DNA from: Thermoplasmata archaeon | GTDB taxonomy: Archaea > Thermoplasmatota > Thermoplasmata > Lutacidiplasmatales > UBA184 | Direction: 5' to 3' | Length of the DNA stretch: 59,159 bases | Assembly: GCA_021790425.1 (NCBI GenBank) | Contig: JAJYEA010000009.1 | Location: forward strand, 1-59,159 | The notes under the pieces: generated by a model | Told to the model about the DNA's origin: nothing | Seen by the model: only the letters and a program-made list of their open reading frames with translations | The model's database searches: none | Shown here: positions 20,048 to 45,900 of the stretch, piece by piece | How positions within the stretch are numbered: position 1 is the first letter of the stretch | How the letters are laid out: the number at the start of each line of letters is the position of its first letter | Position numbers and translations under genes: made by a program

Positions 20048-23000
20048 TTAGTGGGACGTCTCCGGGGCAGGTTCCGCGGCAGGCTCCGGCGCCGGAGGGG
20101 ACGAGGAGGTCGCGTTCGCCGGCGGGTTCTGCGACTTCCGCCGCATCATCACGGCCAGCACCGCGATCACCAGCGCGACCACCGCCACCACCAGCGCGAT
20201 CGCGAAGTACGTCTGCGCATCCGCGAGCGTCGCCGTCGGCGCGGGCGTCGAGGTCGTCGTGTACTGGCATCCCACCGTCACCGCGCTCCCGCTCACCGTC
20301 ACCGACGTCGAGGCGCAGGCCACCTTGTAGCCCGACACCTGCGAGACCGAGTAGCTGTACGACCCGTTCGCCTCGTAGAAGACCAGGTTCGTCCCGGCGG
20401 TGCTCTGCGTGACCCCGTTCACCGTTGCCGACCACGTCTGCCCGGTGAGCCCGGCCTCCTGCACCGTGATCGCGTACGTCACCGGCGTGTACGTCACGGT
20501 CAGGTTGTAGTTGCCGTTCACCGAGATCGTGCCCGACGCCGGCTTCACGGAGTAACCCGCCACCGGCGAGACCGCGTAGTCGAACGTTCCCGGGTTCACC
20601 TGGAAGGTCGCCGTGCCCGAGGTCGACGTCGCCGTCACCCCGTTCACCGTCGCCGACCAGCCAGTCCCGCTCGCCAGCCCGGACTCCATGACCGTCACGG
20701 TGTACACCGGCTGGGCCGTCGACGTGAAGCTGACCCACACCGTGTAGTTCCCGCCCACCGTCACCGTCCCGCTCGACGGGCTCACCAGGTAGCCGGCCAC
20801 CGACCCGATCTGGTACTGGTAGGTCCCGGGGGTCGTGGGGAAGGCGATGGAGGTCCCCGTGCCGGTCTGCGTCGCTCCGTTGAACGTCGCGGTCCACGAG
20901 GTGCCCGAGGCGAGCCCCGTCTCCGCCACGCTCACCGTGTAGGTGGGGGGCACCGTCGAGGTGTACGTCACGTCCAGCGTGTAGGCCCCGTTCACGTTCA
21001 CCGTCCCGCTCGACGGGCTCACCGCGTAGCCCGCGACCGATCCGACCTGGTACTGGTAGCTCCCCGCCACCACGCGATAGGTCAGCGTGGAGGCCGCGCT
21101 CGAGTTGCTCACACCGTTGAACACGGCCGACCAGGCCGTGCCCGCGGGGAGGCCGCTCTCCACCACCGAGACCGTGTAGTAGGTCGGGATGGGGGTGTAG
21201 ACCACCGTCTCGTTCAGCACGAGGGCGTTCCCGCCCATGATCGTCCCGGTGGTCGGGGTGCTCGTATAGCCGGCCACGGCCGGGACCGTGAAGGTGCTCG
21301 ATCCCGGGGGTGCGTCCAGGAGCTGCCAGGCGTTGGCGGTCGCGTAGGTCTTCGAGTTCAGGACCACCGACCAGGTCGTCCCCGCCGGAAGCCCCTTCTC
21401 GTAGAAGTAGACCGCCGTGTCTCCCTCGTGCGCTCCGAGCGGGTAGTAGTCCCATACCCCGTCCGAGAGGTAGTAGGGGTTGAGCCGCCCCTGCGCGTTG
21501 AAGGAGTGCCAGTCGGCCCAGAAGTTCCCGACCTGCCCGGACGAGTTGAAGAAGTTGTTGCTGACCGACCACGCCTGGATGTGGAGCGGGCTGTAGGTGG
21601 CCGTCGCCCCGTTGTCGCCCACGAACGAGCTGTCCCAGACCACGTTACCGACGCCCGACTCGATGTCCACGCCGTATCCCGTGTCGTTCGTGAACTGGGA
21701 GAGCGTCACCCAGTTGGAGTGCGCGTTCGCGTTCATCTGGAGTCCGATCCCATCCTGGACGAAGTTCAGGTTGGAGAAGTCCGACCAGTACGTCCCGTTG
21801 AGCATCGCTCCGTAGTCGGTGGTGGTGGCCGTCACCGAGTCGGCCAAGAGGTTCTCGGAACCGATGTCGTAGAGGCCTGCCTCGTAATTGGTGGCGGTGA
21901 CGGAGCCGATGGTGGTCTTGTAGGTTTGGTAGGCGTAGACCGCGGTCATCAGGTTTCCGAAGTAGTTGTACTGGCTCCAGGCGGTCCCGAGAGTGGCGTT
22001 GGTGGCGGTGACCCCCGTGACGGCATCGTTGGACCCGTACAGGACCCCGACCCCGATGGACCAGGAGACCTTCGTGTCGGTGATGGTGGTATACGACGAG
22101 TACTCAATCCAGACGCCCCAGGACTGGACGGAGGCGACCGTGTTGGTCACGGTAGACCAGCCCGAATAGATGAGATAGACCGCTAGGGATTCGTTCGTGA
22201 CCACCGTCCCGGTCACGGAGGAGTTGTCGGAGTACATCAGGTAGACCCCGCCCCACCGGTTGGCGCTGACGCTCGAGACCGTGACGTGAGGAGAGAAGTA
22301 GGCCAGGACCCCATAACCCCACGCCGCGGTCACCGTGCTGATGGTCGAGGGGGTGACGTACACGAGGGCCACCCCGTAGACGGGCTCGGTCGACGTCCCG
22401 GTCGCGGTCACGGTGTTGATGTTGTAGTTGGACCCGTAATCCCCCATGAAGACGTATGCCTGGTTGGTGGACCACGGGGCGACCATGGTACCGGCCAGGT
22501 TGGACGCCGCCACGTTGTTGACGTAGTCCAACCAGATCCCGTAGAGGGTCGAGGAGTTCTGGAACCAGCAGGTGATCTCGTTGAGGGTGACGTAGTTACC
22601 GTGGGCCAGCTCCACACCGTAGGACATGGAGGTGCCGGTCGCCGGGTCGGTCCAGAAGTTGAAGACGGACCTCTGGATGGTCACATGGTCGGTGTACTGC
22701 CCGTAGAATCCCGCGGTGGTGGAATTCGCATCGAAGTTGCTGACGGCCACCTGGGTGTCGTTGCCGGTCGAGATGGCATAGTAGTACGAGTCGTTGGCCT
22801 GCATGTCGGTCACGTTGACCCACGCATCCCAGTCCGTGACCAGGCCGTAGGAGAGGTCCGAGAGCACTACGTGGGACACGTTCGTGTAGTTGCTGTAGCC
22901 CGACTCGAAGCTGGCATAGTCTCCGCCGGTCGCATTGAACCAGTCGAGGGTCGTGTGGGAGGCGGCCGTCAGGCCGATCCCCATGTAGGCCCCATTGGTC

Positions 23001-25495
23001 TCCGTCACGTTGCGCATGGAGAGCTGGTTCGTGACCTGGAGGTAGATCGCCCAGGTATACCCCGAATCGTAGACGTTCTGGATCGTCGTCCCGTTTCCAC
23101 CCGGAATGTTGTAGTAGGAGAGCCAGCCCGAGCCAGCCCAGTACCCGCCGTTAATGCAGTACATGTAGATCATGAGGCACGTGAGATCCTCATAGACGCT
23201 CCCGGTGGTAGAGGCGGTGATGATCCCGTTCCCGGCGCCGTACGAGGGGTTGTACAGGGCCCGCAGGTTCTTCACCAGGGTATGGTGGCCCGCCACGTCA
23301 TAGACACCGGCCCCGCCCGCCACGGACACGTCGTTCATCACCACGGTGTCAGAGGAACCGCCCGTGAAGATCCCGTAGGCGCTACCATAGAAGTTGGTCA
23401 CCATGTCCCCGCTCGAGGAGTCGTTCCAGGCGAGGGTGTTGGTGTCCTTCCACAGGAAGGCGGCCGACCCGATGCAGTAGTAGAAGCACATGCTTACCAG
23501 GGTCTCGTTCGACAGGACGGCGCCGTGGTCCAGGAAGAGGTTGATGTCGGCCGTGTAATTGTCCACCGCGGTGAACACAGACGGAGGAGACCCAGCGTCA
23601 TAGATCAGGTTCGAGTTGGGCTGCTCCCACACATGGTTCACGTGGATCGAGCTGGACAGACCCTCGGCCTGGAACATCTCGAACGTGGTGAACCCGTAGT
23701 CGTTGATGTGCCCGAAGGAGTTGTTCAGGGCAAAGCTCTGCCCGGAGAAGGTCCACGGGGCCGTCCCGGAGCCGGTGATGTTGAGGGCCGCACCCTTGGC
23801 CTGCGCGTCCCCGTTGATGTAGATCGGGGCATGGAGGGGCGTCGTGACCAGCTTCGTCAAGGTGATGGGGAACGCCGGCTGGTTCGTCGCGAAGGATCCG
23901 TTAAACTCGGTCGCGTCCGGGGCGAAGCCCTGCACGTAGTACTGCTGGGCCCCGGGGAGGGGAGGCAGGTACGTGTCGAAGGTGCCCGTGCTGGTGGTGG
24001 GGACCCAGCTCGAGTTGAAGCTGGAAGGGTCCTGCGCCCCCGGGGTCACGAAGACGAAACCATAGGCCGGGGAGATGGTCCCCTTGAACTGGATGTCTCC
24101 GGAGGCCGCGGCACCGGCCGCCGGGGTTCCCCAGAACCCGTGGAGCAGGGACGGGCCCGCCGTGATCTGGACGGTTCCCTTGGTCAGCCAGCTCTCGGAC
24201 ACGCCCGCCGCGGTCTCTCCCGTGTCGGTACCGTAGTCGTAGGCCGACTGGATGGTCTTCCATCCCCCCGAGCTGGCGTTGGAGTACTGAAGGGACATCG
24301 TCCCGTTCAGAGAGCGGAACATCGCGTTGTCCCCGCCGATCCCGCCGCAGAGGACCAGCTCGGAGTCGTACGGGACCCCGGGGGTTGTGGTGTAGTGGCC
24401 GTTGACCTCGAAGTTCGGAGTGGGGCTGGTGGGCGTGACGATCCCCGTGAACGAGGGGTTGCTCTCGATGCCGGAGGCCTTGAATCCGCCCGCGCCGCTG
24501 AAGTGGTACCCGAAGGCGATCTGGTCATGCCCGTTCACGACGGACGCATTGTTGTAGAACTGGAGGGTCATCGGGAAGTCCGCCGGGGAGATCGGGATCG
24601 TGGAGCCCACGCACTGGTACAGTCCGTTCAAGGTCACGAGGTCGGTCACGTTCATCGAGGGGCACCCCGTGGGCAAGAAGGTGGTGCCCGAGGGGATTCC
24701 GCCCGATGCACCGTAGGTGAAGTTGAAGATGTCATCGACGAAATGGATGCCGGTGTCGTTGACGTCGACGACGTTCTGGGTCCAGAACGTCCCGTTGGTG
24801 TACCCGGGAATGGTGATGTTCGTGAGGATGGTGTTGAGCTGGATGCCGAACTCGTACTCGGATCCGACGTACCCCTCGTGCTCGCCACCGGGCATGATCA
24901 TCGGCATGGCTGCAGGCTGGGTCGCATTGGGCATCGAGTTGAAGGTGACGGTGCCCAGGAAATGGGAGGAATTGTACGCGAAGGGCCCGCCCGCGCCGAG
25001 GCCGAAGTCAGCGATCCCCATCGGGGCCGGGGCTTCGGAGTAGTAGGGGGACATGGCCGCGGAGACCGGGTGGATCCCCTGCACGATGTTGGCGTTGGGA
25101 TAGGAGACGAGCTGACCCAGGCGGGCGGTCGCTGCGTCGTGGACGCCCAGCGCCTTCTGGGCCCACAAGGGAAGGGAATGGTAGTTCGAGGGAAGATGGG
25201 ACCCCACGCCGTTCGAGTAGGAGTTCTCAACGTAGGGGGAATTCGCATAGGAGGCAACAGGAGAAGTCGAAGGGTTTGCCGAAGGGACGGTCGGGAGTTG
25301 ACCCAGCATTGGACCCGCTGGAGTGGCCGTGGCCGCAGGCGTCGAGTGGAGCGTCGCGGGAGCGGCTCCGCCCACCGGATTCGCGGCTTGGCCCAGCGAC
25401 TGGGCGGAGGACACCCCTCCCGAGAAGATCATGGTCAAAGCGACGATCAGCGCTAGGGCGACCAGGCGTCCACGGCGACTCCACCAAGCGTACAT
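20048..25495 (-). CDS. Giant thermopsin (peptidase A5) / beta-helix surface protein
   Basis: 1815 residues. A basic start and signal sequence (about residues 8-30) precede a Ser/Thr/Pro-rich stretch. A thermopsin-like domain spans about residues 150-455: PAPMGIADFGL, FLGTVTFNSM, FWTQNVVDVND and ELVLCGGIGGDN match the family by eye. A long right-handed beta-helix region (about 598-1340) has many short Asn/Thr/Tyr repeats of NosD/parallel beta-helix type. Five roughly 80-residue repeats follow, then a C-terminal membrane helix (about 1750-1775) and a short acidic tail. Thermopsins are acid proteases secreted by Sulfolobales and Thermoplasmata. This one would be anchored with its bulk outside. 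Abundant NxS/T sites suggest glycosylation. Monocistronic. Confidence 0.88.
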   Translation of the reverse strand: MYAWWSRRGRLVALALIVALTMIFSGGVSSAQSLGQAANPVGGAAPATLHSTPAATATPAGPMLGQLPTVPSANPSTSPVASYANSPYVENSYSNGVGSHLPSNYHSLPLWAQKALGVHDAATARLGQLVSYPNANIVQGIHPVSAAMSPYYSEAPAPMGIADFGLGAGGPFAYNSSHFLGTVTFNSMPNATQPAAMPMIMPGGEHEGYVGSEYEFGIQLNTILTNITIPGYTNGTFWTQNVVDVNDTGIHFVDDIFNFTYGASGGIPSGTTFLPTGCPSMNVTDLVTLNGLYQCVGSTIPISPADFPMTLQFYNNASVVNGHDQIAFGYHFSGAGGFKASGIESNPSFTGIVTPTSPTPNFEVNGHYTTTPGVPYDSELVLCGGIGGDNAMFRSLNGTMSLQYSNASSGGWKTIQSAYDYGTDTGETAAGVSESWLTKGTVQITAGPSLLHGFWGTPAAGAAASGDIQFKGTISPAYGFVFVTPGAQDPSSFNSSWVPTTSTGTFDTYLPPLPGAQQYYVQGFAPDATEFNGSFATNQPAFPITLTKLVTTPLHAPIYINGDAQAKGAALNITGSGTAPWTFSGQSFALNNSFGHINDYGFTTFEMFQAEGLSSSIHVNHVWEQPNSNLIYDAGSPPSVFTAVDNYTADINLFLDHGAVLSNETLVSMCFYYCIGSAAFLWKDTNTLAWNDSSSGDMVTNFYGSAYGIFTGGSSDTVVMNDVSVAGGAGVYDVAGHHTLVKNLRALYNPSYGAGNGIITASTTGSVYEDLTCLMIYMYCINGGYWAGSGWLSYYNIPGGNGTTIQNVYDSGYTWAIYLQVTNQLSMRNVTETNGAYMGIGLTAASHTTLDWFNATGGDYASFESGYSNYTNVSHVVLSDLSYGLVTDWDAWVNVTDMQANDSYYYAISTGNDTQVAVSNFDANSTTAGFYGQYTDHVTIQRSVFNFWTDPATGTSMSYGVELAHGNYVTLNEITCWFQNSSTLYGIWLDYVNNVAASNLAGTMVAPWSTNQAYVFMGDYGSNYNINTVTATGTSTEPVYGVALVYVTPSTISTVTAAWGYGVLAYFSPHVTVSSVSANRWGGVYLMYSDNSSVTGTVVTNESLAVYLIYSGWSTVTNTVASVQSWGVWIEYSSYTTITDTKVSWSIGVGVLYGSNDAVTGVTATNATLGTAWSQYNYFGNLMTAVYAYQTYKTTIGSVTATNYEAGLYDIGSENLLADSVTATTTDYGAMLNGTYWSDFSNLNFVQDGIGLQMNANAHSNWVTLSQFTNDTGYGVDIESGVGNVVWDSSFVGDNGATATYSPLHIQAWSVSNNFFNSSGQVGNFWADWHSFNAQGRLNPYYLSDGVWDYYPLGAHEGDTAVYFYEKGLPAGTTWSVVLNSKTYATANAWQLLDAPPGSSTFTVPAVAGYTSTPTTGTIMGGNALVLNETVVYTPIPTYYTVSVVESGLPAGTAWSAVFNGVSNSSAASTLTYRVVAGSYQYQVGSVAGYAVSPSSGTVNVNGAYTLDVTYTSTVPPTYTVSVAETGLASGTSWTATFNGATQTGTGTSIAFPTTPGTYQYQIGSVAGYLVSPSSGTVTVGGNYTVWVSFTSTAQPVYTVTVMESGLASGTGWSATVNGVTATSTSGTATFQVNPGTFDYAVSPVAGYSVKPASGTISVNGNYNLTVTYTPVTYAITVQEAGLTGQTWSATVNGVTQSTAGTNLVFYEANGSYSYSVSQVSGYKVACASTSVTVSGSAVTVGCQYTTTSTPAPTATLADAQTYFAIALVVAVVALVIAVLAVMMRRKSQNPPANATSSSPPAPEPAAEPAPETSH
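20270..21420 (-). repeat. Five tandem ~80-residue repeats within the thermopsin protein
   Basis: Each unit begins YxVxVxExGLxxGTxW and ends with GYxVxPxSGTVxVNGxYxxxVxYT. The units diverge at the DNA level, so they are an old protein repeat. They probably form Ig-like stalk domains that lift the protease from the membrane. The first and last copies are the most divergent. Confidence 0.75.
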
Positions 25496-27129: not shown

Positions 27130-28218
27130 TCATTTCGAGGCGAGGCGGGGGTCCAGGACGTCGCGGAGCCCGTCCGAGAGGAAGAGGATCCCCAGCCCGA
27201 ACAGGGCGATCCAGACCGCCGGGATGACGAACCCCCACCAGGCGTTCGAGAGGAAGGTGATGCCCGGGGCCGGGACCCAGGCCACTGCCCCGGTGGAGAG
27301 GACGAGCCCCCATTCCGGGAAGCCGAAGGAGGGGGTGACGGGGGCCACGGTGGGGCCCGCGAGCCCGTAGCCGCATCCGAACCCCGAGTTCGCCCAGTTG
27401 GAGGCCGTGACGACGAACTGGACCCCGACCACGAGGGCGAGGGTGAGCGCGACCGTCACCGGGATCTGGGCCAGCACCGGATAGAGGCTGTTCGGGAGCA
27501 CGTGCCGGCGTATCACGTGCCCTCGGGAAGAACCGGCCGCGTAGGCCGCCTCGACGTACGGGAGGTGGGCCACCCGGGCCGCCTCTCCCCGCACCCCCCG
27601 GGCGAACGGCGCCCACAGGACGAGCACCATGGCGAAGATGAACAGGTACGGGCCGGCCCACAGGGGAAAGTGCGGGGCAAGGACGCCGACGAGGAGCAGG
27701 ACGAAGACGAAGTACGGCACGGCGAGGATCACGTCGATGAGGGTCATGATGAGCCAGTCGATCCTCCCCCCGGAGCTTCCCGCCACGAGCCCGGCCCCGA
27801 GACCCAGCCCGGCCGCCGGCAGCGCGATCGCGGCGACGAGGAAGAGGTCCCACCGGCTCCCGACCACGAGGCCCTGGGCCACATCGTAGCCCATGAAGAT
27901 CGTCTCGCCGAACGGGTGCGGACCCGTTGAGAAGGGAACGAGCTGGAGCGTCGGCGGCGACGGCTCCGAGCACTGGATGAGATACGCGGTGTCCATCGAG
28001 AGGGAGGTGAGGTTGTGGGGATACCACACCGGGGCCATGAGCGCCATGGCCACGAAGAAACCGGTGATCGCGAGCCCTGCCACGAGCGAGGGCCGCCGGA
28101 GGGCCCACCCGAGGTTCTCGAGCTGACGGCGTCGCCGTCCGGAGGCACCTCCCCGACCGGACTCACCATGGGAGGAGGGTCCGGGCTCGTCCGCTTCGGT
28201 CGCTTCGTTCCCCGACAT
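27130..28218 (-). CDS. DppC-type ABC transporter permease (copy 3)
   Basis: 362 residues. An acidic/Ser-rich cytoplasmic N-terminus, then about six membrane helices. The DppC entry motif is HPFGETIFMGYDVAQGLVVG and the EAA loop, which docks the ATPase, is VEAAYAAGSSRGHVIRRHVLPN. It resembles the two genes upstream throughout, so the three arose by tandem duplication. An extended extracellular loop near the C-terminus (GFGCGYGLAGPT to VPAPG) is longer than usual. Peptide/nickel-type importers are the nearest family; substrate unknown. Confidence 0.9.
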   Translation of the reverse strand: MSGNEATEADEPGPSSHGESGRGGASGRRRRQLENLGWALRRPSLVAGLAITGFFVAMALMAPVWYPHNLTSLSMDTAYLIQCSEPSPPTLQLVPFSTGPHPFGETIFMGYDVAQGLVVGSRWDLFLVAAIALPAAGLGLGAGLVAGSSGGRIDWLIMTLIDVILAVPYFVFVLLLVGVLAPHFPLWAGPYLFIFAMVLVLWAPFARGVRGEAARVAHLPYVEAAYAAGSSRGHVIRRHVLPNSLYPVLAQIPVTVALTLALVVGVQFVVTASNWANSGFGCGYGLAGPTVAPVTPSFGFPEWGLVLSTGAVAWVPAPGITFLSNAWWGFVIPAVWIALFGLGILFLSDGLRDVLDPRLASK

Positions 28219-28224
28219 CCCCGC

Positions 28225-29373
28225 TCAGCGCGCGGTCCCCCGCGGCTCCCACGCGTCCCGTATCCCGTCGAAGAGCAGGATCACCCCAAGGCCGAAGAGT
28301 GAGATCCAGAGCGCGGGAATGACGAACCCCCACCACGGTCCGGACAGGAAGGTCACCGGCCCGAACCCGGGGGCCCACAGTACGCTCCCGGCGGCGAGGA
28401 CGAGGCCCCATTCGGGGTAAGCGGCCGAGGGGGTCACCGGGGCCACCCCGGAGGTGTTGGTCTGCCACCCGCACCCCTCTCCGTAGGGAGGGTGGGCGTT
28501 CGCGTAGGTCACGACGTACTGGACCCCGATCACCAGGGCGAGGATCAGCGCGATCGTGATCGGGATCTGGACGAGGACCGGGGTCAGGCTGTTCGGGAGC
28601 ACGTGCCTCCGCAACAGGTTACCCCGGCGTGCCCCCGCGGCGCGCGAGGCCTCGACGAAGGGCAGGGCCAGCACGCGGGAGGCCTCCCCGCGGACCCCCC
28701 GCGCAAAGGGCGCCCAGAGCACCGCGATCATGGCGCCGATGAAGAGGTACGGGGCGTCGTCCGCAGGGACCCGGGGGGACAGGAGGATCACCGCGAGGAT
28801 CACGAAGACGAAGTACGGGAAGGAGAGGATGGCGTCGGTGACCGTCATGAGGAGCCAGTCGACCTTCCCGCCATAGGAGGCGGCCGAGAGCCCCACGAGG
28901 GTCCCCATCACGGCCGCGGGCGCCGTGATGAGGGTGATGAGCATGAGGTCCCAGCGGCTCCCCACGACGAGCCCCTCCAGGACGTCGTAGCCCATGGACA
29001 GCGTCTCACCGAAGGGGTGGGGTCCCATCCCTAGCGGGAGGAAGGACAGCGTGGGCCCGGAGGGCACGCCGCAGGCGGCGACCATCGCGGTGTCGACGGG
29101 GAGGGAAGTGAGGTCGCGCGGGTACCAGAGCGGGGAGAGGAGGGCCATGGCCACGAAGAACGCGGTGATCCCGAGACCGGCGAGGAGGCTCGGGCGGAGC
29201 CACGCGCGGATCCACGCGGTACGGTGCGCTCCCGAGTGGTGGGGATCGGTAGGGGGTTGCGGTGTCTCCGTGTCAGGACCGGGCCCGTCCGTTCCGGGTG
29301 ACGTCTCCACTTCCTCCGGGGCGGCGTCGTCCGCCTCGGAAGCGTCCCCGCTCGAATCCTCGACCTGCACCAC
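28225..29373 (-). CDS. DppC-type ABC transporter permease (copy 2)
   Basis: 382 residues from GTG 29373. Same plan as its neighbours: an acidic N-terminal tail, HPFGETLSMGYDVLEGLVVG, and EAA loop VEASRAAGARRGNLLRRHVLPN. The same Cys-containing external loop is present (EGCGWQTNTSG). It lies 8 bases after copy 1 and 6 bases before copy 3, in one operon. Confidence 0.9.
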   Translation of the reverse strand: MVQVEDSSGDASEADDAAPEEVETSPGTDGPGPDTETPQPPTDPHHSGAHRTAWIRAWLRPSLLAGLGITAFFVAMALLSPLWYPRDLTSLPVDTAMVAACGVPSGPTLSFLPLGMGPHPFGETLSMGYDVLEGLVVGSRWDLMLITLITAPAAVMGTLVGLSAASYGGKVDWLLMTVTDAILSFPYFVFVILAVILLSPRVPADDAPYLFIGAMIAVLWAPFARGVRGEASRVLALPFVEASRAAGARRGNLLRRHVLPNSLTPVLVQIPITIALILALVIGVQYVVTYANAHPPYGEGCGWQTNTSGVAPVTPSAAYPEWGLVLAAGSVLWAPGFGPVTFLSGPWWGFVIPALWISLFGLGVILLFDGIRDAWEPRGTAR

Positions 29374-29381
29374 CCGTCCCC

Positions 29382-30374
29382 CTAACCGGTCCGCGAGCGG
29401 GCAGAAATCCCCGTCCCCAGACCATCACAAAGCAAGATGACGCCGATGCCGAAGAGCGCGATCCACAGCGCCGGGAAGACGAAACCCCACCAGGGACCGG
29501 ACAGGAAGTTCGTGCCGGGGGCAGGTGCCCAGTCGACCGAACCGGCCGCCAGAATGAGTCCCCACTCGGGGTAGTTGTACACCGGGACCACGGGAGCGAC
29601 GGCGGATCCGACCGTTCCGAAGCCGCAGAAGGCCGCGCTTTGCAGGTTGGCCATGGTCACCACGAACTGGACACCGACCACCAGCGCCAAGGTCATGGCC
29701 ACGGTGATGGGGATCTGGGCGAGCACCGGGGCCAGGCTGTTCGGCAGGATGTGGCGCCGCAGCACTCTTCCCAGCGAGGCCCCGGCGGCCCGGGAGGCCT
29801 CGACAAAGGGCAGGGCGACCACCCGGCTCGCCTCCCCCCGCACTCCCCGGGAATACGGGGCCCAGAGCACGAGGACCATGGCGGAAACGAAGAGCATCGG
29901 CCCCCACGCCGTGGGCACACGAGGGGAGAGCAGGATGACGAACAGGATCACGAAGACGAAGTAGGGGATGGCGAGGACCGCGTCGGTCACGGTCATGAGG
30001 AGCCAGTCGACCTTTCCCCCGTATCCGGCGGCCGTCAGGCCCGCCGAGGTGCCCAGCACGGCCGACGGGCCCGTGATGGCGGCGACGAGGAAGAGGTCCC
30101 AGCGGCTGCCGACGACCAGTCCCGCCGCCACATCGTACCCCATGAACTGCGTCTCCCCGAGGGGATGCGGGCCCCGCAAGGTGGGCCCGGGTGCAATGCC
30201 GCAGGTCTGGAGGAGGTGGAGGTCGTACGGGAGTCCCCCCAGGTCCCCGGGGTAGAGCAGCGGGGCCACGAGGGCCACCGCGACGTACCCCGCGACGATA
30301 ACCGCCCCGGCAAGGAAGGCCGGACGCGCAAGGATGTGCCCCCACGTCGAGCGCTGAAGAACGGCCTCGGTCAT
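29382..30374 (-). CDS. DppC-type ABC transporter permease (copy 1)
   Basis: 330 residues. ATG at 30374 overlaps the stop of the DppB fusion (ATGA), which fixes the start; the longer open frame upstream is a shadow. Motifs: HPLGETQFMGYDVAAGLVVG and EAA loop VEASRAAGASLGRVLRRHILPN. It has the shortest N-terminal tail of the three copies and is the most likely direct partner of the DppB-like subunit because of translational coupling. Confidence 0.9.
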   Translation of the reverse strand: MTEAVLQRSTWGHILARPAFLAGAVIVAGYVAVALVAPLLYPGDLGGLPYDLHLLQTCGIAPGPTLRGPHPLGETQFMGYDVAAGLVVGSRWDLFLVAAITGPSAVLGTSAGLTAAGYGGKVDWLLMTVTDAVLAIPYFVFVILFVILLSPRVPTAWGPMLFVSAMVLVLWAPYSRGVRGEASRVVALPFVEASRAAGASLGRVLRRHILPNSLAPVLAQIPITVAMTLALVVGVQFVVTMANLQSAAFCGFGTVGSAVAPVVPVYNYPEWGLILAAGSVDWAPAPGTNFLSGPWWGFVFPALWIALFGIGVILLCDGLGTGISARSRTG

Positions 30375-33061
30375 TGCGACCGCCGGAGGAGGCCGGAGGC
30401 GCTCACGCGGGGATCGAGGAACCGGACGAGGACATCGGCGACGACGTTGACGATCACCACCATGATGGCGAAGATGTAGATGATCGGAACGAGCTCGAAA
30501 ACCGAGCTCTGGGAGAGGGAGGTGTTGAGCATCCCCATCACCGCGCCGCCGATCCCGATGTCGCCGAAGACGTACTCCACGATCGCCTCGGTGATGAGGA
30601 ACGCGCTGAACGTGGTCGAGAAGGCGGACACGTAGAGCGGCAGGGCGCGCCGGGAGGCATGGTGCCACAGGAGCCGGCGCTCCGAGACCCCGCGGGCCCG
30701 GGACGCCGTGAGGTGCGGCTCCTCGGCCGCCTCGGCCACGCTGAAGCGGAGGTAGCGGAGGTAGACCGCCGAGTAGATCAGGGCGATGATGAGCCCCTGG
30801 AGCAGGGTCTTGATCACCACGATCTCCTCGAGCGACCACTCATTGTGGAGGGCCACGTCGATGATCGGGAAGCCCGTGGGCGTCGTCGTCCCGTAGAGCG
30901 TGAGCCAGGCGGGCACGCCCCCAAGGTGATCGAAGTACCACCCGGCCGAGATCGGGAGGATCCCGTAGAAGGAGGAGTCCCAGCCGAACGTGTAGAGCCA
31001 GGCCGCGTAGGCCCACCCCAGGACCAGGAAGCACAGGGCGATGGTCGAGAAGTAGAGACCGAACGTCGAGTACCCGCGGGTGACCGCATCGAGCTTGCCT
31101 CCGCGGTTCCACCCCGAGAGGAGACCGAGCGGGTAGGCGAGGAGCGCGCTCAGCGCCAGGGCGACCAGGATGAGCTCGAGGGAGGAGGTGAAGTACCACA
31201 TGATCGGGACCGTTCCGTAGTTGTACGAGAGCGTGGCCGCGAACCACGCCCCCGAGAAGAAGTTGCCGAGCGCCGAGCCCCACCCCTGGAGATACCCCAG
31301 GGTCGTGACGTGCGAAGCGCCCGGGAGCGAATCCCTCGCCGCCGACTCGAGGAAGTAGACGACGGTGACCACGAAGATGAGCTTCGAGAGCACGCTGAGC
31401 AGGGTCTCGAGGGCCCAGAAGGCCTGGGCCCTCCGGCGCAGCGTCGCCGGGGCCCGGGAGTGCCAGACCGTCTCCCACGCCTCCTGGGTGCGCCGCTTCG
31501 CGGCCCAGAGGAACGAGCGGAGGTCCCTATCACGCACGAACGCGACGAAGAGCGGGGCCAGGGCGAACGGGAAGGGGATGTGTCGGTTGACCCCAAGGTC
31601 GGCCAGGATCGCGCGCTGGTGCTGCTGGAAGAGCGCGGCCTTGACGGTGAGGATGCTGAGCCCCAGGAGGATGAGCCCGATGAGGACGACCCCCGCGACG
31701 ATCAGGGGCCAGGGGATCACGAGCGGGGGAGGGGCTGGGGGAGGCGGGGCCTTCACGTGGAGGCTCGCGGTGGTCCGCGCGGTGTCGCCGACGGCGTCCC
31801 GGACGGAGAGGGTGATCGTGAAGGTCCCGGTCGCGTTGGTCCGGAACACGTGCGTGACCGTCGTCCCCACGGCGGTGGCGGTCCCGTCGCCGAAGTTCCA
31901 CGTGTACGAGTAGGGGGCCGTGCCTCCCGTGGCCGACGCGGTGAGCGTGACCTTGAGGGGGGTGGTCCCGCTCGTCACCGAGAGGGCGATCGACCCGGCG
32001 AGACCCCCGGGAGACCCGCCGAAGGGGATCGAGAGGATCCAGGGCGAGATGACCTGGTCCGTGAGCGGAGCCCCGCCCGCCAGCACGAAGACGTTCGTGC
32101 CGAGGTCCCAACCCTCCACGAGCGATGCCCCCGCGGCGGGAGAAGGAGCCGGGGCGCCCGGGGCGAAGAGGGGCGTCAGGTTCTCCCAGGTATGGTTCTG
32201 GGGGAGGTACATCCAGGTGTCCCCGAGGGTCCCTTGGGGACCCGCTCCCCCGTAGAGGAGAGGATAGCCTCCCCCGGTCGTGGTCGCCGCGACAAAGGCC
32301 CGGGGCGAAGGTCCCGGGACCCCGGTGATCTCGCTCCAAGTGCCGTTGTGGAGGGCCCAGAAGTCACCCAGGACGGAGGTCCCGTTGGTACCCCCGAAGA
32401 GGTAGTCGGTGGAGTCCGCGGGGTCGTAGACCAGGCTCGCGCCCCACCGGGCCGGAGGGCTGGGGGTGAGGGTCTGCTGCGTCCACGTCCCGTTCGCGTA
32501 GAACCACGTGGTGTTGAGCGCCTGGCCCGACGCGCTCTCCCCTCCGAAGAGCATCACCCCGGACGGGCGGTTGCTCCAGGCCGCGGCCGCGAACGCCACC
32601 GGGGGAGGCGATCGGGCCGGCGCGAGCTCCTGCCAGGTGAGGGCCGTGCCACTGAACAACCAGGTATCGTCGAAGGTGGTGGTGTTGTTGCGACCACCGA
32701 AGTAGAGCGCCCCTCCGAGGGTCGGCGCCGAGACGGAAACCGCCCCCTCACGGGCCGCGGGGCTGGTCTCGTAGCGGAGACCCCAGTCCGGATACCCGGG
32801 GGCCCCCGTGAAGAGCCACGTCTGGTTGCTGTAGCCCGAGAGCGTGATGCCGCCGTAGAGCAGGTCCCCCGCCTGGTTCCCGGCGAAGACGAAGGTCCCG
32901 TTCGCGAACGACATCGGGGCCCCCGTCGCCGACACGTACTGGTCCCACGACGGGGCGCTGCCGAGGTAGGAAGGAGCGGGGGCTGCGTGGACGGCCGGCG
33001 CGGCCCCGAGGCCCAGCAGGAGGGGCACGAGCCACAACAGCCACCAGCGACCGGCTGTCAC
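30371..33061 (-). CDS. Kelch-propeller / PKD / DppB permease fusion
   Basis: 896 residues from GTG 33061. Signal peptide (about 1-26), then kelch-type blades (about 45-340; repeated GGxxxxxxxxDTWxY/F and NGTW units), a PKD domain (about 350-440, with YTWNFGDGTATAVG), a proline hinge, a first membrane helix (about 445-470), a basic cytoplasmic stretch (about 480-560) and a DppB-like permease core with about six helices and an EAA-type loop (ASRARGVSERRLLWHHASRRAL, near residues 790-810). Topology fits: propeller outside, permease in the membrane. The external part may capture ligand or bind the cell wall, replacing or aiding a binding protein. This fusion is not one I know from described systems. 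The frame is uninterrupted. Confidence 0.88.
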   Translation of the reverse strand: MTAGRWWLLWLVPLLLGLGAAPAVHAAPAPSYLGSAPSWDQYVSATGAPMSFANGTFVFAGNQAGDLLYGGITLSGYSNQTWLFTGAPGYPDWGLRYETSPAAREGAVSVSAPTLGGALYFGGRNNTTTFDDTWLFSGTALTWQELAPARSPPPVAFAAAAWSNRPSGVMLFGGESASGQALNTTWFYANGTWTQQTLTPSPPARWGASLVYDPADSTDYLFGGTNGTSVLGDFWALHNGTWSEITGVPGPSPRAFVAATTTGGGYPLLYGGAGPQGTLGDTWMYLPQNHTWENLTPLFAPGAPAPSPAAGASLVEGWDLGTNVFVLAGGAPLTDQVISPWILSIPFGGSPGGLAGSIALSVTSGTTPLKVTLTASATGGTAPYSYTWNFGDGTATAVGTTVTHVFRTNATGTFTITLSVRDAVGDTARTTASLHVKAPPPPAPPPLVIPWPLIVAGVVLIGLILLGLSILTVKAALFQQHQRAILADLGVNRHIPFPFALAPLFVAFVRDRDLRSFLWAAKRRTQEAWETVWHSRAPATLRRRAQAFWALETLLSVLSKLIFVVTVVYFLESAARDSLPGASHVTTLGYLQGWGSALGNFFSGAWFAATLSYNYGTVPIMWYFTSSLELILVALALSALLAYPLGLLSGWNRGGKLDAVTRGYSTFGLYFSTIALCFLVLGWAYAAWLYTFGWDSSFYGILPISAGWYFDHLGGVPAWLTLYGTTTPTGFPIIDVALHNEWSLEEIVVIKTLLQGLIIALIYSAVYLRYLRFSVAEAAEEPHLTASRARGVSERRLLWHHASRRALPLYVSAFSTTFSAFLITEAIVEYVFGDIGIGGAVMGMLNTSLSQSSVFELVPIIYIFAIMVVIVNVVADVLVRFLDPRVSASGLLRRSQ

Positions 33062-33174: not shown

Positions 33175-36100
33175 ATGGTTCGCCGGTGGGGAAGCCGTTC
33201 GTGGGCCGTCTGCGTGATCGCATCGGTCCTGGTGCTTCCGGGACTCGCGGTGGGCACGGGGGCGAACGGCCCTTCCCTTCCCCACTCCGTGGCCGACCGG
33301 GGGACCCCGCCGGCGCTGGCGCACCGGGGGCCGAGCCCTCCCTCGAATCCCGACACCCTTTCCCCCCGTAGGACCTCGACGACCCCTTCGCTGGTCCTCA
33401 ACCGGACCCTCGTGCTCGCCAACGGCACCGTCGTTCCCGGGGCTTTCGGAACCGAGACCGGCGTCATCCCCCTCGCCGCCGTTTACGACCCCGAGACCGG
33501 GGACATCCTCCTCGCCGGGTCCGCCTCCACGTCGTCCGTGGTGAGCGTGGTGGACCCGATCTCCGCCAAGCTCATCCGTGAGGTGCCGGTCCAGGCGAGC
33601 TCGCGCGCCCTGCTCTACGACCCGCAGGCCCACGCGATCCTCGTGGCGAACTCCTCCGGTGGGACGAACCTCGCCGTGCTGAACGCGTCGACCTACCGCA
33701 CCGAGACGAACGTCACGGTGGGCACCGACCCTGTCGCCCTCACCGAGGACACCACGAGCGGGGAGATCTACGTGGCGAACTCCCTCTCGCAGAACCTCAC
33801 GGTCCTGAGCGCGTTCACGCTCGGAGCGATCGCCTCGATCCCATTGACGGGGACCCCCGCCGGGCTGGCCTACGGCGCTCCGGGGGGCAATGTCTACGCG
33901 TCCGAGAGCTCCAACGCGCTCATCGCGGTCGTGAACGCCTCGGCGAACAGCGTCGTCACCACGTGGAAGGTCGGCGCGTCGCCCCAGGGCCTGGCCTACG
34001 ATCCGGTCAACACGGGGCTCTATGTGACCGATGGCCTGCTCAACAAGGTCTTTCTCCTCAACACCAGTATCGGTACGGGACCGGTGGTCCTCAATCTCAC
34101 GGTAGGCACCAACCCGACGCAGGACCTCATGGTCCCGAGCCTGAGCATGCTGTACGTCGCGAACAGCGGATCGGGGAACGTGACCTTCCTCAACACCCGG
34201 ATCTCGCAGATCGTGGCCACCGCGCGCGTGGGCATGGCCCCCGCCGGGATGGCATGGGACCCGGTGAACGGAGACCTCTACGTGGGCGACGCCTCGCACA
34301 ACGTCTCCGTCCTGGCCGGGTCGGTGGGAGTGACCGTCGGGAACATCCTCCTGTCGGTGAGCCCCTACGCGATGACGCTCGACCCCTCGGCGCACGAACT
34401 CTTCGTCTCGGACTACGGGGGGGGAAGGATGCTCGCGTTGAGCGAGGCGGGCGTGCAGATGGGCGACGTCGCCCTGCCCGGGAGCTCCTACCCCACCGGC
34501 GTGACCTACGTCCCGTTGACGGACGAGGTCTACGTCGGGATGCAGGGGAGCTCCTCCATCGATGCGGTCAATGCCAGCACCCTCCAGGTGGTCGGGACCT
34601 ATCCGATCACCGGCACCCCCGGGGCCTCCTGCTACGACCCGACGGGCACCAGCCTCGTGGTGGCCTCGACCGGGGGCTACTACACCTTCCTCGACCCCCG
34701 GTCGGGGTCGCCCTGGGCGTCGGGTGCGGTGACGAACGACACGCCCGCGGTGGCGTGCGACACGTCGAACGGGGAGGTCTTCGTCCCGAATGCCCCGAGT
34801 ATGTCGGTCCGCGGCAATCTCACGGTGATCAACGGGACCTCGCATGCCCTGCAGGCTTCAGTCCCCGCGGGCATCGGACCCTCGGCAGTGACGTTCGATC
34901 CCGTCAATGGGTATGCCTACGTCGCAGACGCCGGAGGCAGCACCGTCACGGTGGTCGACGGCCGGAACCTGTCCGTGGTGGCCACCGTGAACGTCCCCTG
35001 CGGCGCCGCCAGCGGGGCGACGATCGCCTACGTGGCGTACGGCAACGCGGTCTACGTCACGGCCGGGAGCACGGTGTGCGTGGTGAACACCACGTCGAAC
35101 ATTCTTCAGGGCCAGTTCACGCTGGGGCAGGCGCCGCAGGCCGTTGTCTACGACAGCGCCGTGCGGACCGCCTTCGTCCCCGACGAGATCGCGGGGACCG
35201 CGTACCTGCTCACCCCCGCTCCCGTGGTCAGCGGCCCCACGATCTCCACCTTCACGGCCTCGCCTCCGTCCATCACGCTGGGGGCCTCCGCCACGCTCAC
35301 GGTCTCGGCCAGCGGCGGCACCGCTCCGATCACGTACCAGTATTCCGGCCTTCCCCCCGGCTGCTCTGCAGCGAACCTCTCCTCCCTGACCTGCACCCCG
35401 ACCGCCGCGGGGGTCTTCCTCATCACCGTGAACGTCACCGACCATAACGGACTGTCCGCGTCCGCCACGACCACGCTGACCGTTTCCGCGCCCCTCGCCG
35501 CGACGATCGCCTTCGACTCCCCGAGCACCGGTCCCGCCCCGCTGACGGTCGCCCTCTCGGCGGGAGCCTCGGGAGGGGTCGGTCCCTTCGGCTACACCTG
35601 GAACTTCGGGGACGGGACCTCGGGCACGGGGCTCACCGTCACCCACACCTGGACCTCTTCCGGGGTCCATCAGGTGGTGCTCGACGTGACGGATGGCGCG
35701 GGCGCCCGCGCCTCCGCGACCGCCAACGTCTTCGCCACCGGATCGGCGGGGCTCACCGCGCAGCTCGTCTTCGACTCCCCCTCGCTGGGATACGCCCCGT
35801 TTAACGTCACGTTCTCCGGCAGCGCGACCGGGGGGACGGCGCCCTACAACTTCACCTGGTCCTTCGGGGACGGGTCCTCCGGGGCGGGCCCGAGCGTCTC
35901 CCACGCGTACGGGACGCTCCCCGCCGGATGCACCACCCTGCAGTGTCCCGTCAACGTGACGCTCGTGGTCCGGGACGCCACGGGGGCCCAGAGCTCCACC
36001 ACAGCCCAGGTGATCCTCCTCTCCGGGAGCTCACCGCCGCTCTCGCTCACGCTGGACGACACCCCCGGCACGGGGCTCGCCCCGCTCCCCGTCACCTTCC

Positions 36101-36978
36101 ACGCGGGGGCCGCGGGGGGGTACGCCCCCTACTCGTTCGTCTGGAGCTTCGGGGACGGGACCTCGGCGTCCGGGACCTTCGCCAACCACACCTACCTCAC
36201 CCCGGGCACCTACACGGTTCTCCTGACCGGGTCCGATGCGGCCGGCCACATCTCCCAGGTCAGTGCCACCGTCGTGGTCCTCCCGTCCTTCACCAACGGT
36301 GCCCCGGGGGCCCTGCAGATCGCAATCTCGGCCGCCCCCGCGACGGGCCCCGCGCCGCTCAACACCCGGCTCACCGCCGAGGTCTCCGGCGGATCGGGAC
36401 CCTACGCCCTGACGTGGCTCTTCGGCAACGGCGGGACCGCCCACAACGTGTCGTCGGTGAACCGCACCTACTCCTTCGGTAGCTACGCCGTCACGCTCGC
36501 TGTGTCGGATGCCGCGGGAGACCAGGCGATCACCGGGATCTTCATCCTCGCCACCGGGACGGGGAACGAACCCTCCAACCTTACCGCGTTCGTCGCCGTC
36601 CCGTCGATGTCCGGCGCGGCACCGTTGGAGCTCACCTGCATCCCGGCCGTACGGGGCGGGACCGCACCGTACGAGCTCTCGTGGGACTTCGGCGACCACA
36701 GCCCCATCGTCCACAGCTCGGGGCTTCTCCCCCAGAACCACACCTACTCCTCGGCCGGGGCCTACTACCCGACGGTGAGCGTCAACGACTCCGCGGGCCA
36801 CTCCCTCACCTGGTCCACGAAGGGCACGGGACTCTCGGTGGCCGTGAGCGCGGGGAACGCCCCCGGCCGCGGCAGCCCGGGGATGCCGGATTGGGTGATC
36901 TATGCCGTACTGGGGGTAGCCGTGGTGACTCTGGCGACCGTCCTGATCATCGGCAAGCGGAAGGTCATCTTCCGGTAG
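33175..36978 (+). CDS. Secreted YVTN beta-propeller / multi-PKD surface protein
   Basis: 1267 residues. Signal peptide (about 1-25), an S/T/P-rich region, then YVTN-type propeller repeats (about 98-680; pattern YDPxxGxxYVxNxxSxxVTVxN), one Ig-like domain with GLPPGC (about 690-770), four or five PKD-type domains (about 775-1225; several with WxFGDG) and a C-terminal membrane helix (about 1236-1258) ending in a basic tail. It would be anchored with its domains outside, probably in adhesion or cell-surface structure. Four bases after its stop comes the STAND/DUF835 ATPase gene, an operon-like arrangement suggesting a surface-to-cytoplasm link. Confidence 0.88.
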   Translation: MVRRWGSRSWAVCVIASVLVLPGLAVGTGANGPSLPHSVADRGTPPALAHRGPSPPSNPDTLSPRRTSTTPSLVLNRTLVLANGTVVPGAFGTETGVIPLAAVYDPETGDILLAGSASTSSVVSVVDPISAKLIREVPVQASSRALLYDPQAHAILVANSSGGTNLAVLNASTYRTETNVTVGTDPVALTEDTTSGEIYVANSLSQNLTVLSAFTLGAIASIPLTGTPAGLAYGAPGGNVYASESSNALIAVVNASANSVVTTWKVGASPQGLAYDPVNTGLYVTDGLLNKVFLLNTSIGTGPVVLNLTVGTNPTQDLMVPSLSMLYVANSGSGNVTFLNTRISQIVATARVGMAPAGMAWDPVNGDLYVGDASHNVSVLAGSVGVTVGNILLSVSPYAMTLDPSAHELFVSDYGGGRMLALSEAGVQMGDVALPGSSYPTGVTYVPLTDEVYVGMQGSSSIDAVNASTLQVVGTYPITGTPGASCYDPTGTSLVVASTGGYYTFLDPRSGSPWASGAVTNDTPAVACDTSNGEVFVPNAPSMSVRGNLTVINGTSHALQASVPAGIGPSAVTFDPVNGYAYVADAGGSTVTVVDGRNLSVVATVNVPCGAASGATIAYVAYGNAVYVTAGSTVCVVNTTSNILQGQFTLGQAPQAVVYDSAVRTAFVPDEIAGTAYLLTPAPVVSGPTISTFTASPPSITLGASATLTVSASGGTAPITYQYSGLPPGCSAANLSSLTCTPTAAGVFLITVNVTDHNGLSASATTTLTVSAPLAATIAFDSPSTGPAPLTVALSAGASGGVGPFGYTWNFGDGTSGTGLTVTHTWTSSGVHQVVLDVTDGAGARASATANVFATGSAGLTAQLVFDSPSLGYAPFNVTFSGSATGGTAPYNFTWSFGDGSSGAGPSVSHAYGTLPAGCTTLQCPVNVTLVVRDATGAQSSTTAQVILLSGSSPPLSLTLDDTPGTGLAPLPVTFHAGAAGGYAPYSFVWSFGDGTSASGTFANHTYLTPGTYTVLLTGSDAAGHISQVSATVVVLPSFTNGAPGALQIAISAAPATGPAPLNTRLTAEVSGGSGPYALTWLFGNGGTAHNVSSVNRTYSFGSYAVTLAVSDAAGDQAITGIFILATGTGNEPSNLTAFVAVPSMSGAAPLELTCIPAVRGGTAPYELSWDFGDHSPIVHSSGLLPQNHTYSSAGAYYPTVSVNDSAGHSLTWSTKGTGLSVAVSAGNAPGRGSPGMPDWVIYAVLGVAVVTLATVLIIGKRKVIFR

Positions 36979-42918: not shown

Positions 42919-45900
42919 TCACGCCCGACCCGTCGAGAGTTCCTGCCGAGCCGCGGCCGACAGAGGGACCGCGCGATATCCCTGCGGCGTGGACCCTACC
43001 CCGGCCGGATGGGCCCTCGACCGGACGTCGGCGGGGGTCCCGCGGGGGTCCGGCCCTGCCGGAGCCCCGGGCTCGGGAACTCCCGGGCCCTGCGGGGATG
43101 GTGGCTGGGGGGGGCGTCGTCCGATCTCCACCTCTTCACGGTGGCGAATGATCATGGCGACCACGAGGGCCGCTCCGAGCACCGCGATGATGAGGGCAAG
43201 GAAGTACGGGGTCCAGTCGAAGGAGCCTCCCCCTCCGCTCGGGGACGTCGTCGTGGTGTTGGTGGACGGGGATTTGGTGGGGGCCGGGTTCACGACCACG
43301 GACAGCGAGGCGTTCGAGTAGGCGCCGGTGGGGTCCGACACGTTCACGCTGACCCCATAGCTGCCGGGCGCGGTCGGGGTGCAGCTCAGCACCGGCGAAT
43401 CCCCGGGAGCACAGCCGGTGGGGAGTCCGCTCCAGGAGTACGCGTAGGGCGGGGCCCCGCCCGACTCGATCGCGGAGAGGGTGAAGGACGTCCCCGCGAC
43501 GAGGGACGAGGCGCTGGCCACGAGCGAAGCCGTCCCCAGGCGGGGCAGCACGGTGAGCACGACCACGTTCGAGAGGACAGGGGTCTGTCCCGGGAGCGTC
43601 CCGGAGACCTCCACCGCGTAGGTGCCGGTCGCCGTGGGAGTGCAGGTGAAGTATGTGCCGGACGGGACGCACCCGCCCGGGAGCCCCTCCCACTGCCAGG
43701 AGACCGTAGAGTTGTTTCCCACGGATCCCACCCGGATGTCCGAGGACTGTCCCAGTTCGAGAGTGGCGGGGGAGGACTGGAGCACCACCGAGGAGAGCGT
43801 CGCGTTCACCTCCACGACCGTGAAGGCCCGGGGCGAGACCACCCCGGTGGCATCGGTGACCTGGACGGAGACGTTGTAGTCGCCCGTGGTGCTCGGGACG
43901 CAGGAAATCGAGGCCGCGTTCATCGCGGGGCATCCCCGGGGAAGACCTGTCCAGAGGAACGTGTAGGGCGTCTCGCCCCCGGAGATGTCCGTGGCGAGGC
44001 CGAGCGTCCCCCCGAGGCCGATCCGGGAGGGGCTGGCGGAGAGGGAGGGGTTGCCGAACGCGGGGTACACGGTGACGACCGTCGGCGGCGAGGTGATGCT
44101 ACCCGCGATTGGGCCGGAGCCCGTGACCGTGATGGAGTAGGTGCCCGGGGTCGTGGGCTGGCACATGATCGAACCGAGGGTGCCCGCGCACCCTGGGGGA
44201 AGGCCCGACCAGGTGAAGTTGAGGACACCGGTGTACCCCGTCACCGCGGCGGCGAGGGTCAGGTACTGGAGCACGTCGACCTGGGAGAGAGAAGCGGACA
44301 CCCCCACGCTCCAGTCGGGACCGCCGATCGTGAGCGTGACCGGGGCGGAGGTGACGTTGAACCCGGTGCCGTCCAGGGCGCTCACGTGGATCTGCCACGT
44401 GCCCAGGTCCGAGGCAAGGTTCGGGGTGCAGGTGAGGGCGTTCGTGGGGCCCGGGGCTGCCGTGCAGTTGGCGGGAAGCCCGAACCACGCGATCGAGGAG
44501 AACGTCTCGCTCCCTCCCGAGGCATTGGCCCAGAGCGTCACGTTCTCGCCCAGCGCGATCTGCGAGGGGTGGAGCGAGAGAACGACCACGGGGTCCGTGT
44601 TCACGTTCAGCGAGAGGAAATTGCTCGTGACGCCGGGGAGCCCGTTCCCCGAGGAGACCACGTCGGTCACGAAGAAGGTCCCGTTGGTGGCCGGGGTGCA
44701 GGCGACGGACGCCGCGCCGTTCGCGGGCGCGGCGCATCCCGGCGGAAGTCCTTGCCAGGAGTACCCGGGGGCGCTCACGCCGCCTCCGCTGGCCGCCGCC
44801 GAGATCTGGACGCTCTCCCCGAGGTCGATCGTCGTGGGGGAGGCGGTCGGGGTCAGCGCCGTCCACGGGGTTCCGACCATCCAGGTGTCGGTGATCGGCC
44901 CGTAGCGCGAGGAGCCCCCGAAGAGGAGGAGATTGTCACCCTGGCCCGTGTACGCGAGGGAGGCGTACCCCCGTCCGGAGGGCCCGTAGAGGGGCTGGGA
45001 GGTCCAGTTGACCCCGTCGTAGACCCACGTGTCGGAGAGCATCCGGGTGGCGCCGGCCCCGCCGAAGAGGACCACGACGTCCCCGGTGGGGTCCAGCGCG
45101 ATCCCGGCGCCCGCGCGCACCGAGGGGCAGTGGGAACGCGCGCAGTACGAGGCGTTCTCGATGGACGTCCATGCCCCGCCCTGGAACGACCAGGTGTCGT
45201 TGAGCATTCCCGTCGCTCCCACGCCTCCGAAGAGCAGGACCCCTCCGTTCGTGAGGAGCCCCTGGGACATCCCGGCGCTCGCCCGGGGGGAGGGGCACGC
45301 GCGCGTCGCACACTGCGACGGGCTCAGGACCTCCTGCCAGGCTCCACCGTAGAATACCCAAGTGTCGTTGTCGTAGCCAGTTCCCACGCCGCCGAAGAGG
45401 ACGAGTTCCTGGTCCGAGGCATCCCAGGCGATGGACGCGTTCGACCGCGCAGAAGGGCAGGTCGTGCTCGTGCAGGCGCCGCCCGCGATGAGCTCGGTCC
45501 AGGAGTTGGCGGAGAAGCTCCACGTGTCCCGGAGGTAGCCCCCGGTGGTCGTGGACATTCCCCCGAACAGGATCAGGGTACCGTTGACGCCGTCCCACCC
45601 GAGGGAGGTTCCCGCCCGCGGGGAAGGACAGGTCGATGCCAGGCACTGGGCCGACGAGATGACCTCGGTCCACACCCCCTGGGAATACGTCCAGGTGTCC
45701 CCGAGGGTGGTCCCGTCCGAACCACCGAAGAGGACGACTACGTGGTCCGAGGGGTCCCACGCCATGCTGGCGTCCCATCGGGGACCCGGTGCGTTGGAGA
45801 ATGCGAACGGGCTCCAAAGGCCCCGCACGAGACTCCAGGTGTCCCCTCGGTAGGGATACCCGCCGAACATGAGGAGGCCGCCGACCGAAGGGTCGTCGGC

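Follow-up and report, generated by a model that had tools for sequence, protein, structure and literature searches.

On the minus strand of the window, the whole 59,159-nucleotide stretch of DNA from a Thermoplasmata archaeon that was analysed here, lies one uninterrupted open reading frame in which a signal peptide, a kelch propeller, a PKD domain, an extra membrane helix, a linker and a DppB-type permease core follow one another (Table 1). The initial annotation had read this arrangement from the letters, and open reading frame, Pfam and hydropathy analyses agree with it. The kelch (PF24681, E = 3.5e-28, and also PF13418), PKD (PF18911, E = 6.4e-12) and BPD_transp_1 (PF00528, residues 643-887, E = 6.3e-21) matches are all above the Pfam gathering cut-offs, the last with a score of 75.4 bits against a curated cut-off of 26.4. 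None of the Pfam matches to the fusion belongs to a substrate-binding-protein family; kelch and PKD stand in its place. Among solved permeases, the chains nearest to the core by sequence are those of DppB. Hydropathy along the protein resolves the signal peptide, the extra helix and then the DppB helices.

Table 1. Coordinates of the fusion gene, its parts and the DppC partners (window positions unless a locus is given)
Feature	Coordinates	Strand	Remarks
Whole fusion: signal peptide, kelch propeller, PKD, TM, linker, DppB core	30371..33061	-	896 aa, GTG start
Signal peptide (predicted), aa 1-26	32984..33061	-	hydrophobic stretch aa 8-26
Kelch propeller, six blades in model, aa 38-345	32027..32950	-	Pfam PF24681, PF13418; AF2; Foldseek
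PKD domain, aa 355-437	31751..31999	-	Pfam PF18911, PF00801; AF2
Extra membrane helix, aa 453-471	31649..31705	-	hydropathy 3.0; AF2 helix 451-489
Basic linker, predicted cytoplasmic, aa 476-550	31412..31636	-	12 K/R vs 5 D/E
DppB-type permease core, aa 551-896	30374..31411	-	PF00528; nearest solved chain DppB 8z1v; orphan B clade
Motif T-x-PTGFP-x2-D, aa 726-735, predicted extracellular	30857..30886	-	common to canonical OppB
EAA (coupling) loop of B, aa 774-812	30626..30742	-	clade signature RGxxExxLLWxH
DppC paralog 1	29382..30374	-	PF00528, weak OppC_N; start overlaps fusion stop by 4 bases
DppC paralog 2	28225..29373	-	PF00528
DppC paralog 3	27130..28218	-	PF00528
G005 kelch-PKD-DppB-DppC single-chain frames	L047:6145-10050 and L054:1-3600		

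The AF2 model of the fusion (13 relatives) contains a six-bladed propeller with pLDDT mostly 80-92, a PKD sandwich and the helix. The permease core has a pLDDT of about 45-85, and the model as a whole has a mean pLDDT of 70 and a low pTM of 0.42. Foldseek matches the head to the kelch domains of LZTR1 and KLHDC. The ectodomain contains 11 N-glycosylation sequons and the remainder of the protein one; shuffling gave an expectation of 2.8 for the ectodomain and a maximum of 8 among 1000 shuffles. The linker behind the extra helix is basic and therefore probably cytoplasmic. The sequons and the charge of the linker together support a topology in which the propeller and PKD domain lie outside the cell, the linker lies inside and the DppB core has its usual orientation, in agreement with the earlier proposal that the permease has an external module built in. 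In the EAA loop of the core, residues R788, G791, E794, H801 and R804 are common to canonical OppB; R790, the LLW sequence and P808 are specific to the clade, and the loop as a whole has diverged from OppB.

The three DppC paralogs stand in tandem, spaced by 6-8 bases, and are 57-64% identical to one another. The segment 27130-30374 has three DppC genes behind one DppB, and relatives have one or two. Wherever a B copy is not cut off by the end of its contig, a DppC gene lies directly downstream. In one genome (G005) the kelch, PKD, DppB and DppC parts form a single protein of 1301 residues with two permease matches. The adjacent DppC genes and the joining of B and C in one chain in G005 are strong evidence that the fused B and the downstream C make one pore.

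Opp/Dpp-type importers usually, although not obligatorily, have OppD and OppF encoded in the same operon. No ATPase gene is found beside the fusion/DppC unit in the window or in the relatives, with the exception of G016. Likewise, no SBP_bac_5 gene adjoins the unit; such genes are located at other places, close to canonical OppBCDF, and G016 has one in convergent orientation to the operon. Apart from DppC, no conserved functional neighbour of the B units was found. The units that carry a PQQ-type head have a conserved chromosomal neighbourhood, in which glyA-like and thioesterase-like genes were recognised by eye; it looks like plain synteny.

Full-length, single-frame relatives of the fusion are present in genomes G001-G005, G010, G015 and G020. 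They are carried by each of the four further genomes of the genus that were examined, and by other genera of the family too. The fusion is also present in separately deposited GTDB MAG records titled Thermoplasmata archaeon, and in one titled only 'bacterium'. Comparison of four ortholog pairs gives dN/dS values of 0.08-0.36 for the ectodomain, 0.18-0.56 for the linker and 0.08-0.19 for the core. The fusion is genuine, conserved and subject to purifying selection. A frame error or MAG misassembly that joined two genes had been named as a possible source of the frame, and the window is indeed a contig of a 153-contig genome assembly in which kelch and PKD genes are common. However, the same frame is open in many other genomes and evolves as coding sequence over its whole length; because of this conservation an artefact was ruled out, and we regard its probability as negligible. 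The other objection raised at the outset, that related genomes might lack a homologous fusion, fails on the relatives in independent Thermoplasmata MAGs.

The host organisms are uncultured Thermoplasmata known only from MAGs. Within a 390-genome sample of the phylum, the fused form was not found outside one family, and a GTDB pattern scan returned only Thermoplasmata-type MAGs and none from other phyla; both searches were led by these sequences, so that unrelated kelch-permease fusions could be missed.

In a tree of 68 B cores, the orphan B proteins stand apart from canonical OppB with full support, and their clade consists of a kelch half and a PQQ half, both on branches of moderate support. 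In a tree of 40 kelch domains, the fused domains form one group (support 98) that excludes 19 of the 20 free kelch domains. The lone free row within the fused group comes from a frame cut by a contig end and is probably an incomplete fusion. The grouping of the fused kelch domains broadly matches the B-core tree. Since these domains form one clade, a single recruitment of the kelch head is probable, after which it was kept with its permease. A recent chance recruitment of one of many kelch domains was considered as well, and was ruled out by the separate clade of the fused domains and its broad match to the B-core tree.

The head differs between genera. In sister genera within the family, permeases of this clade bear a PQQ_2 propeller (Pfam PF13360), CarboxypepD_reg-like domains and a TM helix; the top Foldseek matches of the AF2 model of this head are BamB, with E of about 1e-23. 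The head in G016 and G021 is kelch with three PKD domains, and in JOPF201 it is a CarboxypepD_reg-like domain only. Headless B copies occur in G030 and G034, and as one copy in G004. By these domain matches the head is exchangeable between genera, being either kelch-PKD or a BamB-like propeller with CarboxypepD_reg-like domains. The existence of naked copies suggests that translocation does not require the head, which would be an accessory. The first interpretation is supported in part: the external propeller module on a permease is borne out, and ligand capture, wall docking and sensing are suggested roles for it; the unit without a neighbouring ATPase or SBP gene, the exchangeable head and the naked copies are new to that interpretation.

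The genome of the window has about 30 ABC ATPase matches. It contains one OppD/OppF pair, on contig C108 beside ordinary OppB and OppC. These two were the only Opp-like ATPases found, and no further one was present among the extractable ABC frames, to which the comparison was confined (a few loci gave no frame). Thus a TMD pair without an ATPase gene of its own occurs in this genome together with one candidate ATPase set. Among 18 other genomes that carry orphan B, 12 likewise showed exactly one OppD/OppF pair, and only in G016 does the pair share a contig with the orphan B. There, the gene order on one strand is fusionB-C-OppB-OppC-OppD-OppF, and the gene for the binding protein is convergent. 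In G010, four fused B copies stand against one OppDF pair. No OppD/OppF match was found in G001 and G003, which are 64% and 93% complete and both have orphan B.

The coupling loops were compared with those of the canonical subunits of the same genome. The C loop is nearer to the genome's own OppC than the remainder of C is in 34 of 34 comparisons, an excess of identity that generic EAA conservation would give likewise. For B, the loop is nearer to the same-genome OppB than the remainder of B in only 12 of 27 comparisons. The indirect signs on NBD sharing, read from these loops, conflict, with a C loop that is OppC-like and a B loop that is not especially OppB-like. Taken together, these findings make it likely that the propeller-headed B/C pairs share OppDF.

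The number of SBP_bac_5 matches does not rise with the number of fused B copies: G010 has one weak match against four copies, and G015 has two against three. These flat numbers would be compatible with a tethered receptor. The genome of the window encodes membrane-anchored SBPs at other loci. Two SBP_bac_5 proteins of more than 1000 residues each (L037:966-4088 on C115 and L038:1349-5065 on C47) have PKD or Ig-like domains and, at one end, a membrane-spanning segment. The canonical OppC (L036:2932-5220 on C108) has an N-terminal PKD domain too, and a gap of the size of that PKD between the OppB and OppC matches is seen in relatives from kelch-type genera and not from PQQ-type genera. The T-x-PTGFP-x2-D motif that the fusion has in common with canonical OppB may indicate that the usual entrance partner is still used.

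We consider it somewhat better than an even chance that the fusion is the propeller-headed B subunit of an Opp/Dpp-type (type I) importer pore, with a shared OppDF motor and a tethered propeller for recruitment or docking. The B subunit of such a pore would have acquired a permanently tethered external propeller. The head and stalk would lie outside the cell, and the extra helix would cross the membrane to the cytoplasmic linker. The DppB core would pair with one of the DppC proteins encoded downstream, so that in the species of the window the three C paralogs could yield three pore variants behind one head. The B/C pair would be driven by the single OppD/OppF pair of the genome and might import peptide-like solutes. 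The propeller, in turn, could recruit substrate-bearing material or a membrane-anchored binding protein to the pore, or could dock the pore in the surface layer. Because both types of head are closest to binding scaffolds, namely kelch domains and BamB, we favour docking or recruitment over enzymatic action.

The role of the propeller may be seen differently. That it took over the receptor role from the separate binding protein, with interchangeable types and one shared OppDF motor for several pores, is a possibility to be taken seriously, if a doubtful one. In the form in which the propeller captures ligand for its own pore, like the fused domains of GlnPQ and OpuA, the idea seems to us rather unlikely. 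It draws on the lack of an SBP gene beside the units, on the flat SBP_bac_5 numbers and on the nature of kelch and BamB-like propellers as binding scaffolds. Yet naked B/C pairs exist, the head type switched from kelch to PQQ, or the reverse, inside one permease clade, the membrane-anchored SBPs encoded elsewhere could serve these pores, and a ligand site was not identified.

Other alternatives concern the motor. As the coupling loop of B is divergent from OppB, B may use another motor, and the same permease could be powered not by OppDF but by another, or a dedicated, ATPase whose gene lies elsewhere. The conserved signature that the B loop has of its own, and the other ABC ATPases of the genome (about 30 matches), leave room for this. 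We nevertheless think it unlikely, given that those ATPases that were compared are only distantly similar to OppD/OppF (a few loci had no extractable frame), that the C loop is OppC-like and that the unit in G016 sits in an OppBCDF operon. It is improbable that the permease does not transport at all and serves as a membrane anchor or sensor displaying the propeller at the surface. The missing motor gene next to the unit and the abundance of kelch/PKD surface proteins in the family would agree with such a role, but selection on the permease core is as strong as or stronger than that on the head, the EAA residues and the pore motif are conserved, and the C genes are kept, duplicated and even fused. 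The propeller-headed, OppDF-driven pore is the reading that we prefer.

Type I ABC importers are textbook machines in which the external part is a binding protein. The fusion resembles the OppB/DppB permeases of solved structure (DppB 8z1v, Rv1283c 8j5q, DppB 8wd9 and OppB 8z21) in its BPD_transp_1 core, EAA-loop residues and adjoining DppC. It differs from them by an N-terminal extension of about 550 residues (propeller, stalk, extra TM and linker), by its separate clade and by a unit without an ATPase or SBP gene. In GlnPQ and OpuA, an external module is likewise joined covalently to the transmembrane domain (PMC8025302, PMC11065425), but there it is a substrate-binding domain, whereas the fusion and its relatives bear a stalked propeller of the kelch or BamB-like type. 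The second type of head has a PQQ_2 propeller like that of BamB; BamB itself is a separate lipoprotein, whereas this head is fused via CarboxypepD_reg-like domains and a TM helix to the DppB core. MsmX and MsmK are established examples of one ATPase that serves several importers (PMC7658222). Those importers, too, have TMD pairs without an ATPase of their own and one candidate motor elsewhere in the genome, but theirs is a CUT1 sugar-importer ATPase in Firmicutes, whereas the motor here would be an Opp-type heterodimer in archaea, which we infer to be shared.

Among open-access papers, nothing relevant was found on a kelch domain or other propeller fused to an ABC permease, which is weak evidence of novelty. 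In the family of archaea described here, the permease comes with a built-in propeller head, the type of which has been swapped between genera. Pores seem to be multiplied without multiplying motors, as in G010. The family offers a concrete, testable case in which a transporter has gained a surface module and in which archaeal Opp-type importers possibly share a motor.

Several other genes of the window encode large multidomain proteins. A divergently transcribed gene at 33175-36978 codes for a protein of 1267 residues with YVTN-type propeller repeats, several PKD domains and a C-terminal hydrophobic stretch. The segment 36983-40069 encodes a 1028-residue protein with AAA_16, DUF835 and TPR matches. 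A thermopsin protease domain and NosD repeats are combined in the 1815-residue product of 20048-25495. The gene at 42919-47244 encodes a kelch and PKD protein of 1441 residues without a permease, and its kelch domains are not part of the fused clade.
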